A DNA stretch of 64,000 nt from Elusimicrobia bacterium GWA2_61_42 (GTDB lineage Bacteria; Elusimicrobiota; Elusimicrobia; Elusimicrobiales; UBA9959). The stretch is taken from NCBI GenBank assembly GCA_001799615.1, contig MGTU01000029.1, positions 62,001-126,000 on the forward strand. The letters run 5' to 3'. The translations under genes and the position numbers were made by a program. Positions within the stretch are counted from its first letter, which is position 1. Each line of letters begins with the position of its first letter. A model generated the notes under the pieces. It ran no database searches. It was given only the letters and a program-made list of their open reading frames with translations, and had not been told where the DNA came from. Of this stretch, positions 1-62,413 are shown in pieces.

Positions 1-791
1 TTCTCTATCAGGATGCCGGCTATGCGCCCGGCCTGGTCCCGCGGAATGGCCACGTGGTGCCCGTCTTTAAGCGTCTGTATGGCATAGCGCACCAGGTCCA
101 TGCCTGAAGTGAGATAGCAGACGGCCTCCGGCGTGGCGCTCAGGATGGCGGCGTCCAGGGCGTCGGCTTCCTTCATGGATCCCGTGAACTGCGCCACCAC
201 CACGTTGCCGGGCAGCGGCTCGGCGCGGGGCAGGTCCTCTTCCTTGGTTCCCAGCAGCGACCAGAGGTTCTTTTCTTTTTTGGGCTGGGCGGCGGCGATG
301 CGCGCCTCATTCTGCTGGCTGACAAATTCGGGCAGACCGGTGGTGGCTTCCAGGGATACGGGCTGGATGCCGGACAGCTGCAGGGCGCTTTGCACCGCCC
401 CGGTGCTGAACAGCACCTGGTCCGCCAGGATGACCACCGGGCGCGCTATTACCCTGACCTGGTCGGCGAACCCTATGGGCAGCGGCCAGCTCAGGCGGCG
501 CAGCGGGGAGAGGAAAGTGGGGGAGATGCTGGCGATGGATTCCAGGGTGAAAAGGTGGACCCTGGGATATTCCTTGTGCAGGGCCAGGAAGGCTTCGCGG
601 TCGCCCGGGGGCACGCGGTTGAAGTCCACCACCATGGCGGAGCAGTCGCCGGTGCTCAGGCGGGTGGCCGCGTATTTCAGATTGGGCACGCAGACGAGCT
701 CGAACCCCCTGCCCGACATGGACGGCGCCATCTCGTCAAGGAGTTCCTTCCCGCTGGTGATCACCAGCACGCGGCCTTTGATTTCTGCCAT
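1..791 (-). CDS. Receiver-like/hypothetical protein, 3' end cut by window edge
   Basis: Minus-strand frame open from CAT at 789-791 to the window edge; reads MAEIKGRVLVITSGKELLDEMAPSM...; absent from ORF track because incomplete. Confidence 0.6.
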   Translation of the reverse strand, partial: MAEIKGRVLVITSGKELLDEMAPSMSGRGFELVCVPNLKYAATRLSTGDCSAMVVDFNRVPPGDREAFLALHKEYPRVHLFTLESIASISPTFLSPLRRLSWPLPIGFADQVRVIARPVVILADQVLFSTGAVQSALQLSGIQPVSLEATTGLPEFVSQQNEARIAAAQPKKEKNLWSLLGTKEEDLPRAEPLPGNVVVAQFTGSMKEADALDAAILSATPEAVCYLTSGMDLVRYAIQTLKDGHHVAIPRDQAGRIAGILIE

Positions 792-3692: not shown

Positions 3693-4493
3693 TCAGCGCC
3701 TGCCGCCTTGGGACAAAGCCGCGGCGCGGTTCACGGCGTCCTCGAACCTCGGTCGCCCGTAATGGTCGTAGAGGTCGCTTTCGTAGTCCTCGCTGACGGG
3801 CAGCGCCGGGTCGAACCCCGGGCTTTCCTTTATGGCTTCGCGCGTCAGGTCCACGAACACCTCGGAAGTTTCCCAGTTCACGCTCTCTATCCAGTGCGGG
3901 GAAATAAGCACCTTCCGGTTGGACAGCCAGGAGCCGGTATCGGCCACCAGGTAGCGGATGGCCCACCGGCCGTCGTCGACTATATAGTCCTCGACGCTCC
4001 CGATGGGGCCGTCGGCCGCGTGCAGGCGGTAGCCCCGCACCATAAGCGTGCTTTGCAGGTGCGCCTCTTCCCCGGACGGCCGGGGCTCCGCGCTTTCCGG
4101 CCTCTCCTCTTCCTCCGGCGCAGGCGGGAACAGCATGCCGCCGGACATGCTGCCGGCGTAGAAGCCCTCGCCCCAGTAGAGCGGCCAGGCGTAATGCTTG
4201 TGCAGCTCCAGCTCGTGCCGGCGCGTTACGGTTTTTTTAGTGTCTATGTCCGGGCTGTTGCTCACCTGCTCCCGCGTCAGGGCGACCGGAAAGGTTTTGG
4301 ACTTCCAGTCCGGCATTCTCAGGGCCGCAGGCGAAATAAGCACCCTGCGGCCGGACAGCCAGCTGCCCGTGGCGGCTACCATGTAGCGGATGTGCCAGGT
4401 CTTGTCGTCGAAGTAGAACTCTTCCACTTTTCCCAGTTCGCCGTCCGTGGCGTGTATCTTGTGCCCTCTCAGGCTATTTATGTTGCGCAGCAT
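3693..4493 (-). CDS. Protein with two PRC-barrel domains
   Basis: 266 aa; internal duplication (LRGHKIHATDGELGKVEEFYFDD...HIRYMVAATGSWLSGRRVLISP / VRGYRLHAADGPIGSVEDYIVDD...AIRYLVADTGSWLSNRKVLISP). Confidence 0.85.
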   Translation of the reverse strand: MLRNINSLRGHKIHATDGELGKVEEFYFDDKTWHIRYMVAATGSWLSGRRVLISPAALRMPDWKSKTFPVALTREQVSNSPDIDTKKTVTRRHELELHKHYAWPLYWGEGFYAGSMSGGMLFPPAPEEEERPESAEPRPSGEEAHLQSTLMVRGYRLHAADGPIGSVEDYIVDDGRWAIRYLVADTGSWLSNRKVLISPHWIESVNWETSEVFVDLTREAIKESPGFDPALPVSEDYESDLYDHYGRPRFEDAVNRAAALSQGGRR

Positions 4494-4753
4494 TTTTTCC
4501 CCCTCGGCCTTGGCGCCGCCCGCGCGGCGCTGCCGGCCTTATGTGAGTAACGGAGAGCAGCGCCCCCGCGCTTGCCCTTTGCCGGGAAGCCCGTGATGCA
4601 CCGCGTTTTGTCCGTTAACTGTTACTAACCCCTGCCCATGGGCCTATTCTAATAGATTTAATTAGAAAAATACAACCTTAAATCCGCGGCTTTGCGGGGC
4701 CGGGTGTATTTGTGGTTTAATTCGGTTGGAAAGCCTGCGCGGGCGGAGGGAAA

Positions 4754-5152
4754 ATGGTGCACAAATTCAAAGTCAGTACTTCGGCCAAGTCGGAGATGGC
4801 GGACATAACCCGCCAGGTGGGGGCGCTGGTGCGCGAAAGCGGGGTGGAGAGCGGGGTCTGCCACATTTTTGTGCCGCACACCACCTGCGGGCTGGCTATC
4901 AACGAGAACGCCGACCCGGACGTGAAGCGCGACATAATCGCCAAGCTGGATGAAAGCGTGTCGGAGGATTTTCCCTACAGGCACGCCGAGGGCAATTCCC
5001 CGGCCCATATAAAATCCATCCTGGTCGGCCCTTCGCTTACCGTCTTTGTCGAGGATGAGACGCTGCAGCTGGGGACCTGGCAGGGCGTTTACCTGTGCGA
5101 ATACGACGGCCCCCGCGATCGCGAGGTCTGGGTAAAGACCATAAAAGCTTAG
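4754..5152 (+). CDS. YjbQ/UPF0047 family protein (secondary thiamine-phosphate synthase)
   Basis: 132 aa; CHIFVPHTTCGLAINENADPDV and GTWQGVYLCEYDGPR motifs. Confidence 0.9.
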   Translation: MVHKFKVSTSAKSEMADITRQVGALVRESGVESGVCHIFVPHTTCGLAINENADPDVKRDIIAKLDESVSEDFPYRHAEGNSPAHIKSILVGPSLTVFVEDETLQLGTWQGVYLCEYDGPRDREVWVKTIKA

Positions 5153-58080: not shown

Positions 58081-58505
58081 AAAAATTATTCTAGCAAACT
58101 GCGGCGCTGCTGTCGTATTTCAAAAGGACGCTGCTTCCTAACTTCCTATATTATTGGGCACTGAGGTGAAATAGGAAGAGCAGGACGCAATGTCTCTACT
58201 ACTGCAAGCAGGCACTTGCGCCCCAAATTGCTAAATTTCAAGACCTGACCCCTTCCCTTGCATAGGGCCGGCTTTGCCGTCAGGCAAAGGCGGAGCTGCG
58301 GCCGCAAGGGCCGTTTCCGCAGATCATAACCTCGTGGCGCCCGTCGTAAAACGTGGGGTGGAATGATACGGGCACGTAGTGGAACCGCTGTCCTGGCGCA
58401 TTCTTGCGCGAATTTAAAAGGCCATTTCGCCAGAAATGGCGATAAGCGCGCTTAAGGAGCTTTTAAGGGGGGGAAAGGTCGTTTAGAGCGAGAAAGCGCC
58501 TCCAG

Positions 58506-58553
58506 GAGCCGCCAGCGGCGGCTGTATGCGGGCGTAAACCTGGGGAGTTTAGC
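58506..58553. repeat. Left copy of imperfect direct repeat flanking RiPP-like cassette
   Basis: GAGCCGccagCGGCGGCTGTATGCGGGCGTAAACCTGGGGAGTTTAGC. Confidence 0.8.
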
Positions 58554-58600: not shown

Positions 58601-59749
58601 TTAATTAGCAGGTTCTGGAGTGACGGATATATTCCCCCCCCTAAGTTCCATCCACTCTACACGTCCTTCCTGAAAACGCCGCAGGCCGCCGGCAAGGCCG
58701 ATAAAAATAAAATATGCGCCAAATAATATCCGGTAGCCGCCCGAAAAAAGATACTCTGGCGAATGAATCAGTGTGTTTAGCCCATGCCACACATTCCCTA
58801 GGCTACCTCCGATCCTCCAAAGGAAATAAAACGAAAATGCGACAAACGCCGCTAAATAAAAGTAATGCAGCCCTCGTGCCCAGCGCTTCGCCTTAAACTC
58901 AGTATATACATCTTTGTAAAGCCAATAACCATCAGTTCGGAAAAGCGGGTTAAGATTGAAGAAGACTATAACCATTATCCAGCGCGCGGCTTCCGCGAAA
59001 GCAATGTCTCCGGTAAATGAGCAAACCAGCAAAAGCAAAAATAAAAACGCTCCCTGAAAAACGAATCCTCCACAATCTATGAGTATTTTTCTCGCAAGGC
59101 CGACTTTCTCAATACCGGAGACATTGGTGTAAAATACGGGATATATAAGATAAATCGAAAACCCTATGGGCCTGAAGCCGATGCCCGAGGACATTGCGGC
59201 GAATGAGTGTCCTAATTCATGGATCAGACTACCAAGAATAATCAGAAGACATACAACGAAGCCGCTCGCTTTTCCGGCTAAAGGAACCGGGATTGCCTTT
59301 TCCGGACCAGTAATCAATAATAGTGTCCCCCATAATAATCCAATAATTGAGAGGGTTGCAAGAAATTGTGTAACTTTATTAATCGCGACTGGCCCGGCCA
59401 TGAAAATCTTGAAGAACTTTTCCTGTACTTGAGCAGAAAGCAGTTTTATACTCGGTGCCAGAAACATTCTAAACAAATCTTTCCAAGAACGCTTCTCCTT
59501 TTTCCGCAACGCCCCTAGAGAAACAAGCTTGTTAAATATCTTTTGTGGTTCATTAAGGCCAAGACCGGATAAAGAATTAAAATACAATTCTTGTGCGCCA
59601 CTATCCGGCAATCCCTTTATCAACCATGCGGTTTCCACACTCAGATGATAACAGGAAGTATCGGTAATGGCTAGATGTTTTTGTTCGTCTTTAACCGAAT
59701 AGGCTTTTTTAAGGTGATTTTCGTAAATAATATCAGCGGCAGAAATCAT
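58601..59749 (-). CDS. Polytopic M50-type zinc metalloprotease with N-terminal PqqD/RRE-like region
   Basis: 382 aa; HELGH in TM context; NLNPLFRTDGYWLYKD second motif; several TM helices. Confidence 0.85.
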   Translation of the reverse strand: MISAADIIYENHLKKAYSVKDEQKHLAITDTSCYHLSVETAWLIKGLPDSGAQELYFNSLSGLGLNEPQKIFNKLVSLGALRKKEKRSWKDLFRMFLAPSIKLLSAQVQEKFFKIFMAGPVAINKVTQFLATLSIIGLLWGTLLLITGPEKAIPVPLAGKASGFVVCLLIILGSLIHELGHSFAAMSSGIGFRPIGFSIYLIYPVFYTNVSGIEKVGLARKILIDCGGFVFQGAFLFLLLLVCSFTGDIAFAEAARWIMVIVFFNLNPLFRTDGYWLYKDVYTEFKAKRWARGLHYFYLAAFVAFSFYFLWRIGGSLGNVWHGLNTLIHSPEYLFSGGYRILFGAYFIFIGLAGGLRRFQEGRVEWMELRGGNISVTPEPAN

Positions 59750-59752
59750 ATC

Positions 59753-61147
59753 TCAACCATGCACGGACACCGTGTCCCCATTACCGTGGGAGGGGGGGGT
59801 AAATCCCGGGTTTTGTTTCTTTTTTTGATAGGCAAGCTTAATTCCGTCAAGAATAACCCTTTTCATGTCTGAACAGTGCGGCTTAAATAAATCCCCAGTC
59901 TTGGCGCGGCATCTTACCCCGCACTGGCCGCCACAAGCAAGCGCCACGGAACATTTAAGGCATTCATCCATGTTGGCAATATGTCTTGTTTTGTACGTCT
60001 CGTGCAGAGGGAAGAATTTAACTCCACTTTCTGAAACATGCCCAACACGAAACTCCGGGTAACCAGCCTCTTCGAAACAGGCGTATAAGTCGCCAAACGG
60101 GTCCAATACCACTGTGTGTTGCATTGTCTGCATACAAAAGCATGTATGGATCAAGCCTATCCCTTTTTCAAGCTGGAACAGATAACCCATTTCATGGGCC
60201 CGGAGGCTTACAGGGTGCTCTAGGTCTATCCCCAAATCGAACACCTGGGACGACAATTCAGCGAGGTCCATAAAATCTGTAGTATCCACCTTGGCGACAT
60301 TGTCATGCAATGGGCTTGCGTATATGCTCGCGTATTTATTCCCGAGAATGTTTTTGGCTTTAAGTTCTTCAATCAACCGCGGCACAGAGGCGAGCGTGCG
60401 CCTGTTGAGATTAAGTCTTATACTAATCTTTGTTCTACGCGAAAGAAGCATAGCGATATTATCAGTAATCTTGTCAAAGGTCTTTTCTCCAGATACGGGG
60501 ATACGGGAGGTATCATGAAGCGCACTGCTGCCATCCAAGGATATCTGCACGTGATTAACAAAACCGGGGCCAGGACCGAAAATATCCGCCATGGAGTCTA
60601 CTTTAGTGGCGTTTGATATGGAGCTGGCAGGCATACTGTGCTTTTTCGTGTACTCTAAAGTCTTGCGTATTACCGCCTCATTTGCCGGCAGGAACGGCTC
60701 TCCGCCGTAAAAAGATACATCAAAGTTTTTGTAATCAGCTCCGGGAATTATTTGAGGGAGATGTCTTTCAAAAAATCCTTCAATTTGCGCAGGCGTCATA
60801 ACCGCCTGCGATTTATGAGGCCGATGCTCTTGCTGGTAGCAGTATTTACAAGCTAGGTTGCAGTTATAACTCATTAAAAGCATGATTCCACCATGCTTAA
60901 CCTCTCTCTCCCATTTTTGGTGAAGGGCGGCAGAGAATTCCTTAAATCGCTCTAACTCCAAGTCAGGCGGTAGGGATGTTATATGTCCACGCTTTACAAG
61001 CACGTCAATATCTTCTTGGTTTAAATCTTTCAGCTTTTCCGAGTTCCCGGATTTAAGGATATCGATCAATTTCCATGGAATCTCGTCGAGACACCCATTA
61101 ACTCCGTTGAATAAAAGCGCAGATCCACCAAGGTCTATAACATTCAA
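59753..61147 (-). CDS. Radical SAM/SPASM peptide maturase
   Basis: 464 aa; CNLACKYCYQ; FYGGEPFL; VQISLDG; C-terminal CLKCSVALACGGQCGVRC..C SPASM-like Cys set. Confidence 0.93.
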   Translation of the reverse strand: MNVIDLGGSALLFNGVNGCLDEIPWKLIDILKSGNSEKLKDLNQEDIDVLVKRGHITSLPPDLELERFKEFSAALHQKWEREVKHGGIMLLMSYNCNLACKYCYQQEHRPHKSQAVMTPAQIEGFFERHLPQIIPGADYKNFDVSFYGGEPFLPANEAVIRKTLEYTKKHSMPASSISNATKVDSMADIFGPGPGFVNHVQISLDGSSALHDTSRIPVSGEKTFDKITDNIAMLLSRRTKISIRLNLNRRTLASVPRLIEELKAKNILGNKYASIYASPLHDNVAKVDTTDFMDLAELSSQVFDLGIDLEHPVSLRAHEMGYLFQLEKGIGLIHTCFCMQTMQHTVVLDPFGDLYACFEEAGYPEFRVGHVSESGVKFFPLHETYKTRHIANMDECLKCSVALACGGQCGVRCRAKTGDLFKPHCSDMKRVILDGIKLAYQKKKQNPGFTPPSHGNGDTVSVHG

Positions 61148-61183
61148 ATAGCGGCTGATATAATGTTTTATTGAAGTATCCCC

Positions 61184-61924
61184 CTACTTTTTAGGCAGGC
61201 AGGGCTGAGGTTGGAACCCGTTTTTAACCAGCAAGGCGCAAATCTCTACTTTATCTTCTACCTTCACCGCCCAGGTTGAATCAATTTTATAAGCTTGGGT
61301 ATAAGCTTCCGCTGCCTCTTTGTACTGGTTAAGCCGCAAAAGAGCCCTGCATTTATTGAATTGCATATAAGCCCTGGGTTCTGGTGAAATAGAAATTGCT
61401 TTATCAATATCCAAGATAGCCTGCGCATATTTTCGCTGGTGTAATTCCGTTGCCCCTCGGCCAAAGTACAGCTTACCCATAAAGGACGTATTTTCTTTCC
61501 AATATTTATGCCCTTGGGGAACAATACCATTTGGGAATACTTGTTCCAGCTCTTTTATCGCTTTATTGAACCCTTCATATGCGCCGTTGAGGTCCCCTTT
61601 CCAGAAGTTTATAGTCGCCTGGTGGAATATAATTGCCTGAGGCTCATCTTTTTTTAGTTCTGGGTATTCACGCACCAAGGTATCTAGTGCTTTTTGTGCG
61701 GATTCCGTGTCCCGATTTGTTAGTGCTTTCCCAATTTCCCACACCTGTCTTTTTTCGCGGGACGTAAACATTAATCTACGTAGTTTTGAATAAACTCCCT
61801 CTGCGTCTTCTTCAAAATTACCGACCTCTATATCCATAAGTGCAGGAGAATCCTGGGGAATAGTTTTGCTGTCACCGGCTATCGCCGGTGAGGAAGCAAG
61901 CATAATCGTTAATAGTAGTTTCAT
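61184..61924 (-). CDS. Secreted TPR-repeat protein
   Basis: 246 aa; signal peptide MKLLLTIMLASSPAIAG; YFGRGATELHQRKYAQAILDIDKAISISPEPRAYMQFNKCRALLRLNQYKEAAEAYTQAYKID. Confidence 0.8.
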   Translation of the reverse strand: MKLLLTIMLASSPAIAGDSKTIPQDSPALMDIEVGNFEEDAEGVYSKLRRLMFTSREKRQVWEIGKALTNRDTESAQKALDTLVREYPELKKDEPQAIIFHQATINFWKGDLNGAYEGFNKAIKELEQVFPNGIVPQGHKYWKENTSFMGKLYFGRGATELHQRKYAQAILDIDKAISISPEPRAYMQFNKCRALLRLNQYKEAAEAYTQAYKIDSTWAVKVEDKVEICALLVKNGFQPQPCLPKK

Positions 61925-61953: not shown

Positions 61954-62253
61954 TTACTGTACAGGCCGACAGTTATTACCGGGACAAACTGTGAATGGGC
62001 GACACTGGTCTGGGTCTTTATATCCCACTGGGCCTGTACATTCGCAAGCGTCAATAAAACAAAACCGTTTACACCAATCATCATCAGGGCAAACGCCTCT
62101 CTTACATGAGCACAAGTCCGGACAGGGGCCCTCCTGACATTTTAGGATCATAACTGGTAAAGCTTCAAACTCTATACGATCCTTAGCTTTTTCAAGTGTT
62201 AAAATATCGCCAGCTGTGAGATTCAAGGATTTTACTATGCTCTCGGTTTTCAT
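61954..62253 (-). CDS. Putative Cys-rich RiPP precursor peptide
   Basis: 99 aa; Cys-free ~38-aa leader then ~61-aa region with 12 Cys; co-directional and upstream of rSAM maturase. Confidence 0.7.
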   Translation of the reverse strand: MKTESIVKSLNLTAGDILTLEKAKDRIEFEALPVMILKCQEGPCPDLCSCKRGVCPDDDWCKRFCFIDACECTGPVGYKDPDQCRPFTVCPGNNCRPVQ

Positions 62254-62368
62254 TTTGTTGCCTCTTCCCTTTTTAGATACGCCAAGGGCAATTCCCCTAA
62301 ATTATTTAAAGGACATTATTGGTAGTCTAGCTGATAGTTCTTGACGGCGCAAGTGGGGGGCGTTTTAC

Positions 62369-62413
62369 GAGCCGGCGGCGGTTATATGGGGGCGTAAACC
62401 TGGGGAGCTCAGC
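62369..62413. repeat. Right copy of imperfect direct repeat flanking RiPP-like cassette
   Basis: GAGCCGGCGGCGGTTATATGGGGGCGTAAACCTGGGGAGCTCAGC. Confidence 0.8.

Follow-up and report, generated by a model that had tools for sequence, protein, structure and literature searches.

In a stretch of 64,000 nucleotides from Elusimicrobia bacterium GWA2_61_42 (hereafter the window), a small gene on the minus strand probably encodes the precursor of a RiPP that would be matured by the radical SAM (rSAM)/SPASM enzyme and the M50 protease of the same operon, with an exported TPR protein as a possible partner. The precursor very probably belongs to an unnamed rSAM-RiPP family. The operon, the division of the precursor into leader and core, the co-occurrence of precursor and enzyme, and the motifs and relatives of the rSAM enzyme can be read from the sequences themselves. 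The leader/core interpretation is supported because the leader is conserved, the core is variable, the rSAM gene co-occurs with the precursor, and the cores match no known family and have no confidently predicted fold.

The precursor gene starts with ATG and has a Shine-Dalgarno sequence 7 nt upstream. The first of its Cys residues is residue 39, and it contains two CxC pairs (CSC and CEC) but no CC; no signal peptide was seen. The window has 207 ORFs that begin with Met and reach 60 amino acids or more, and this one has the highest Cys content of all (12.1%; the next two have 10.3% and 7.6%). Its homologues, which make up a family of 30 precursors with the window precursor included, and the substitution patterns (pooled dN/dS of seven sister pairs, ~0.11 for the leader and ~0.21 for the core) indicate that this is a real gene under selection and not a chance ORF. 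The coordinates of the features are summarized in Table 1.

Table 1 Features of the operon and its flanks, in window coordinates
Feature	Position	Strand	Basis
Gene for the precursor peptide (99 aa with 12 Cys)	61954..62253	-	ORF, family of 30 precursors, dN/dS
Shine-Dalgarno of precursor (GGGAAGAGG)	62261..62269	-	Sequence
Conserved Cys-free leader, residues 1-35	62149..62253	-	Alignment of the leader across the 30 precursors
Hypervariable Cys-rich core, residues 36-99	61957..62148	-	Core identity versus shuffled baseline
C-terminal core module C-x-C-x-GPVGY...C-[RH]-P-[YF]...NCRPV, residues 70-99	61957..62046	-	Alignments
Exported TPR protein of 246 aa with Sec-type signal MKLLLTIMLASSPAIA and a conserved pair of C-terminal Cys	61184..61924	-	Pfam TPR_2 3e-12, alignment
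rSAM/SPASM enzyme, RRE-like N-terminus	59753..61171	-	Pfam, NCBIfam, alignment, model, Foldseek
M50 membrane metalloprotease, HELGH and NLNPLFRTDG	58601..59749	-	Pfam, NCBIfam (both sub-cut-off), conserved motifs
Terminator-like hairpin with T-run, ~160 nt downstream of protease	58421..58440	-	Pattern scan, consensus match only
Left copy of 43-bp flanking direct repeat	58511..58553	+	
Right copy of 43-bp flanking direct repeat	62371..62413	+	

The 30 precursors, aligned over the leader block, share the consensus LNLTxGxxLTLEKxxDRxEFEAL, in which N11, L18, L20, E21, K22, R26, E28, and A31 are invariant or nearly so, as is a Phe of the leader. The mean pairwise identity was 53% for the leaders and 29% for the cores, compared with 22% for shuffled cores. 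The cores carry 2 to 12 Cys residues, whose number and spacing vary across the family; several combine 2 to 5 Cys with Pro-rich tails, Pro-rich cores occur in one clade, and about a third of the family shares all or part of the GPVGY-type C-terminal module. Cys is the single residue retained in nearly every otherwise divergent core. A bare CxxxC core was observed at locus L071, which comes from another family of the phylum. Two or three precursors per operon are common (three at most), with different cores behind one type of leader, and similar core types group together on the tree of the rSAM enzymes (5 changes versus 9.1 after shuffling; 0 of 200 shuffles were as low).

An earlier note on this DNA had proposed an ORF for a 12-Cys precursor here, and the ORF was confirmed at exactly that position, on the minus strand, with 12 Cys that include two CxC pairs. 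The note took the Cys-free N-terminal part up to K38 as the leader; residues 1 to 38 are indeed without Cys, but the conserved leader stops slightly earlier, at about residue 32 to 35 (EFEALPVM). The note had proposed aligning homologues to see whether leader and Cys spacing are conserved separately; the leaders proved conserved and the Cys spacing of the cores variable. The leader/core architecture that it proposed is strongly supported by the different evolution of the two parts, by the rSAM co-occurrence across the phylum, and by the RRE-like domain on the rSAM enzyme and the resemblance of that enzyme to TigE and CteB.

Of the 341 Elusimicrobiota genomes searched, 15 have a precursor homologue, 16 have the enzyme, and 14 have both (Fisher P ~7e-22, uncorrected for phylogeny); the two genes are usually side by side. 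Their presence is patchy even within the genus of the window. Genome G058 has the precursor, and its rSAM gene is broken off after residue 66 (locus L033, 2741-3028, minus strand); in G043, both enzyme loci begin at the end of a contig or close to it. G018 is a genuine exception, having an rSAM gene with no detectable precursor despite 7 kb of upstream sequence. At L042, L043, L044, and L045, precursors carrying this leader stand as orphans, far from any rSAM gene, in genomes that have one elsewhere; these may be substrates in trans.

Outside the phylum, a single scan of genome contigs, which finds close relatives only, was used. A locus labeled Hydrogenedentota (L028) was rejected as a sign of wider spread; it is probably misbinned because it lies on a 3.2-kb contig with 86% DNA identity to an Elusimicrobiota locus. 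No relative was found on viral contigs. Plasmids gave only 25% relatives (Rhodococcus and Muribaculaceae); on the Rhodococcus plasmid (L086, 4902-7499, plus strand), a distant rSAM gene is followed by a gene for a membrane protein with HESGH, but a precursor belonging to this family was not seen. No RiPP family described from Elusimicrobiota was found, and the papers that name both appear to be surveys.

The minus-strand operon is ordered precursor, exported TPR protein, rSAM/SPASM enzyme, and M50 protease, with gaps of 29 nt, ~12 nt, and 3 nt, respectively. This order, with one to three precursors, recurs in most related loci, in which the TPR gene is usual but optional. A DUF4097-type gene comes next in five homologous loci, and no transporter recurs across the homologous operons. 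The TPR proteins were aligned from 13 operon copies, and the Sec-type signal was judged by eye. The M50 protein scored just below the cut-off of Pfam M50 (7e-6) and below that of the NCBIfam model YydH/LiaK (1.2e-9), and both of its motifs are kept in its homologues. A sister system (L072, 4386-9500, minus strand) has three precursors with a different leader, NIIESVEFLAxDDLLVAELDKRLSFTAL, and a 558-aa protein encoded before the rSAM and M50 genes; at L039, a second radical SAM gene (4065-5135, plus strand) lies directly 3' of the M50 gene.

The aligned rSAM enzymes keep the CxxxCxxC motif and the cysteines of the SPASM domain, and Pfam Radical_SAM is above its cut-off. Almost all NCBIfam relatives of the enzyme are maturases of peptides or proteins, and no named NCBIfam maturase family reaches its cut-off (best, TIGR04463, with 114 bits versus 525). 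By sequence profile it matches CteB, TigE, and anSME, and the alignment to the TigE structure (8vpo) runs from residue 10 on. The model of the full enzyme is of moderate quality (pLDDT 64), and its top Foldseek matches were TigE (8vpo), CteB (5wgg/5why), SuiB, and anSME. Residues 11 to 90 were predicted at pLDDT ~80 as three strands followed by three helices, which is the order of an RRE, suggesting that the N-terminus is an RRE-like domain. The start codon is probably ATA (61171-61169, minus strand) with GGGGGA 7 nt upstream, where the homologues have ATG; an alternative start is TTG at 61147. The ATA seems to be a rare start, a mutation, or an assembly error.

We propose that the RRE-like domain of the rSAM enzyme would bind the conserved leader; in CteB, the leader lies as a strand against the RRE (PMC8326336). 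The enzyme, using its SAM-binding and auxiliary Fe-S clusters, would then cross-link the Cys-rich core by radical chemistry. Thioethers built on Cys are the most likely bonds, although we give this bond type only about even chances. Cleavage by the M50 protease at the cytoplasmic membrane, probably directly behind EFEAL(P)xM, would free the core from its leader; proteases of this type process RiPPs, as EpeP and TglG do in epipeptides and pearlins (PMC10885120). The core would then presumably be exported and meet the exported TPR protein as a partner, which we guess to be a chaperone, receptor, or immunity protein. We regard recognition of the leader, its cleavage by the M50 protease, and export as well-motivated inferences.

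The earlier note assigned the core to thioether or other radical chemistry, and we treat thioether formation as a candidate. In CX3D/E motifs, PapB joins Cys to the acidic residue (Asp or Glu), and it tolerates other spacings as well (PMC9413430). In the cores, CX3D/E was not enriched (an acidic residue at Cys +4 was observed 10 times against 18 expected). Enrichment was seen for acidic residues directly before Cys, for Asn at positions +1 and +3 from Cys, and for Tyr at +3. Since PapB tolerates other spacings, the absence of a CX3D signature is still compatible with thioethers. The best structural relative, TigE, belongs to a cyclopropylglycine (Tig) pathway and is not known to be a thioether enzyme, and some cores have only two Cys. 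The same RiPP architecture could accordingly carry another rSAM chemistry, such as a C-C or C-O cross-link, a cyclopropane, or an epimerization, with the Cys residues serving later for disulfides or for binding metal. We take this seriously but hold it to be short of likely; the retention of Cys in nearly every otherwise divergent core speaks against it, and by sequence the enzyme is about as near to CteB and the PapB family as to TigE.

With 12 Cys in about 60 residues, the core might instead be a metal-binding or redox peptide of the metallothionein, ferredoxin-like, or zinc-knuckle kind, and the rSAM and M50 neighbors would also fit a system that matures a metal-handling protein, with no secreted natural product. 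CxxC is a common metal motif, but it is depleted in the cores (9 observed versus ~19 expected, z ~-2.7), and CC is absent throughout the family. The variable number and spacing of Cys and the several cores with few Cys and Pro-rich tails also fit poorly, and we regard this explanation as improbable. The earlier note recognized no metal-protein fold, and our searches agree: the precursors had no match in NCBIfam, Pfam, or PDB profiles, and the AlphaFold2 model was uninformative (pLDDT 44), with no confident core fold. The contrary outcome that the note had named, homologues with a known toxin or metal-binding fold and no rSAM neighbor, was not observed. A small, Cys-rich, and hypervariable product could also be a disulfide-rich secreted toxin or antimicrobial unconnected with the rSAM enzyme; this is highly improbable given the conserved leader, the lack of a visible signal peptide, and the strong co-occurrence and adjacency of the rSAM gene.

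In one variant, the leader and core form the C-terminus of a longer protein (L034, 9203-10546, minus strand, and the cut-off L028 copy, 3-461, plus strand), which has two hydrophobic segments, one at its N-terminus and the other (TLPMATGALLIAGASFGAWALRGK) ahead of the leader. By the positive-inside rule, the leader and core would lie in the cytoplasm. No M50 gene was found in the L034 locus or in the rest of its genome (G044, 83% complete). On a wider interpretation, the RiPP family could be a separate Elusimicrobiota class, in which one enzyme type would make an undescribed cross-link on interchangeable Cys- or Pro-rich cores, with release by M50, an exported TPR partner, and one branch with a membrane-anchored precursor whose leader and core form a cytoplasmic tail; we consider this rather unlikely.

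The operon has a GC content of 42 to 49% in surroundings of ~60% and is flanked by the two repeat copies, which are 86% identical. The 18-bp heart of the repeat occurs nowhere else in the genome at up to two mismatches. In the related genome G032 (contig C92; locus L083), the flanks directly adjoin each other and share a single copy of the repeat (84% over 447 bp), which indicates an empty site. Related genomes contain a dispersed repeat that the left flank resembles, and recombination between such copies would explain the arrangement simply. The four-gene cassette looks mobile.

The RiPP interpretation adds an unannotated family to Elusimicrobiota. It offers ~30 natural pairings of leader and core for a single enzyme family, a ready-made panel for examining the tolerance of the enzyme, the residues linked, and the role of an exported TPR partner in a modified-peptide pathway.

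Among known systems, the ranthipeptides/SCIFF (CteA-CteB) likewise have an rSAM-SPASM enzyme, with an RRE to which the RRE-like domain here may correspond, and a short leader with a Cys-rich core; CteB ranks with the best matches of the rSAM enzyme both by sequence and by structure. However, the SCIFF maturase model TIGR03974 gave 84 bits against a cut-off of 425, SCIFF peptides have six Cys in ~45 residues whereas the precursors here have 2 to 12 and match no model, and the operon here adds an M50 protease and an exported TPR protein. PapA/PapB (freyrasin) also has many thiols per core, but the PapB family model NF047865 reached 113 bits, below its cut-off of 340, and CX3D/E is unenriched here. 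TIGR04463 (rSAM_vs_C_rich), whose name refers to a Cys-rich target, is the best NCBIfam match of the enzyme, although far below its cut-off and with precursors here that match no NCBIfam model. TigE is the best Foldseek match, and its profile alignment takes in the N-terminal domain, but the structural alignment has 15% identity, and its substrate is presumably unrelated to the precursors here. EpeXEP (YydFGH) differs in its epeAB-type transporter, absent here, whereas our system has an rSAM enzyme of the SPASM type with an RRE-like domain and a Cys-rich core, and the M50 protein gave 38 bits against the NF058609 cut-off of 225; the two nevertheless share a precursor, an rSAM enzyme, and an M50 protease in one operon, and YydH/LiaK is the best match of the M50 protein.
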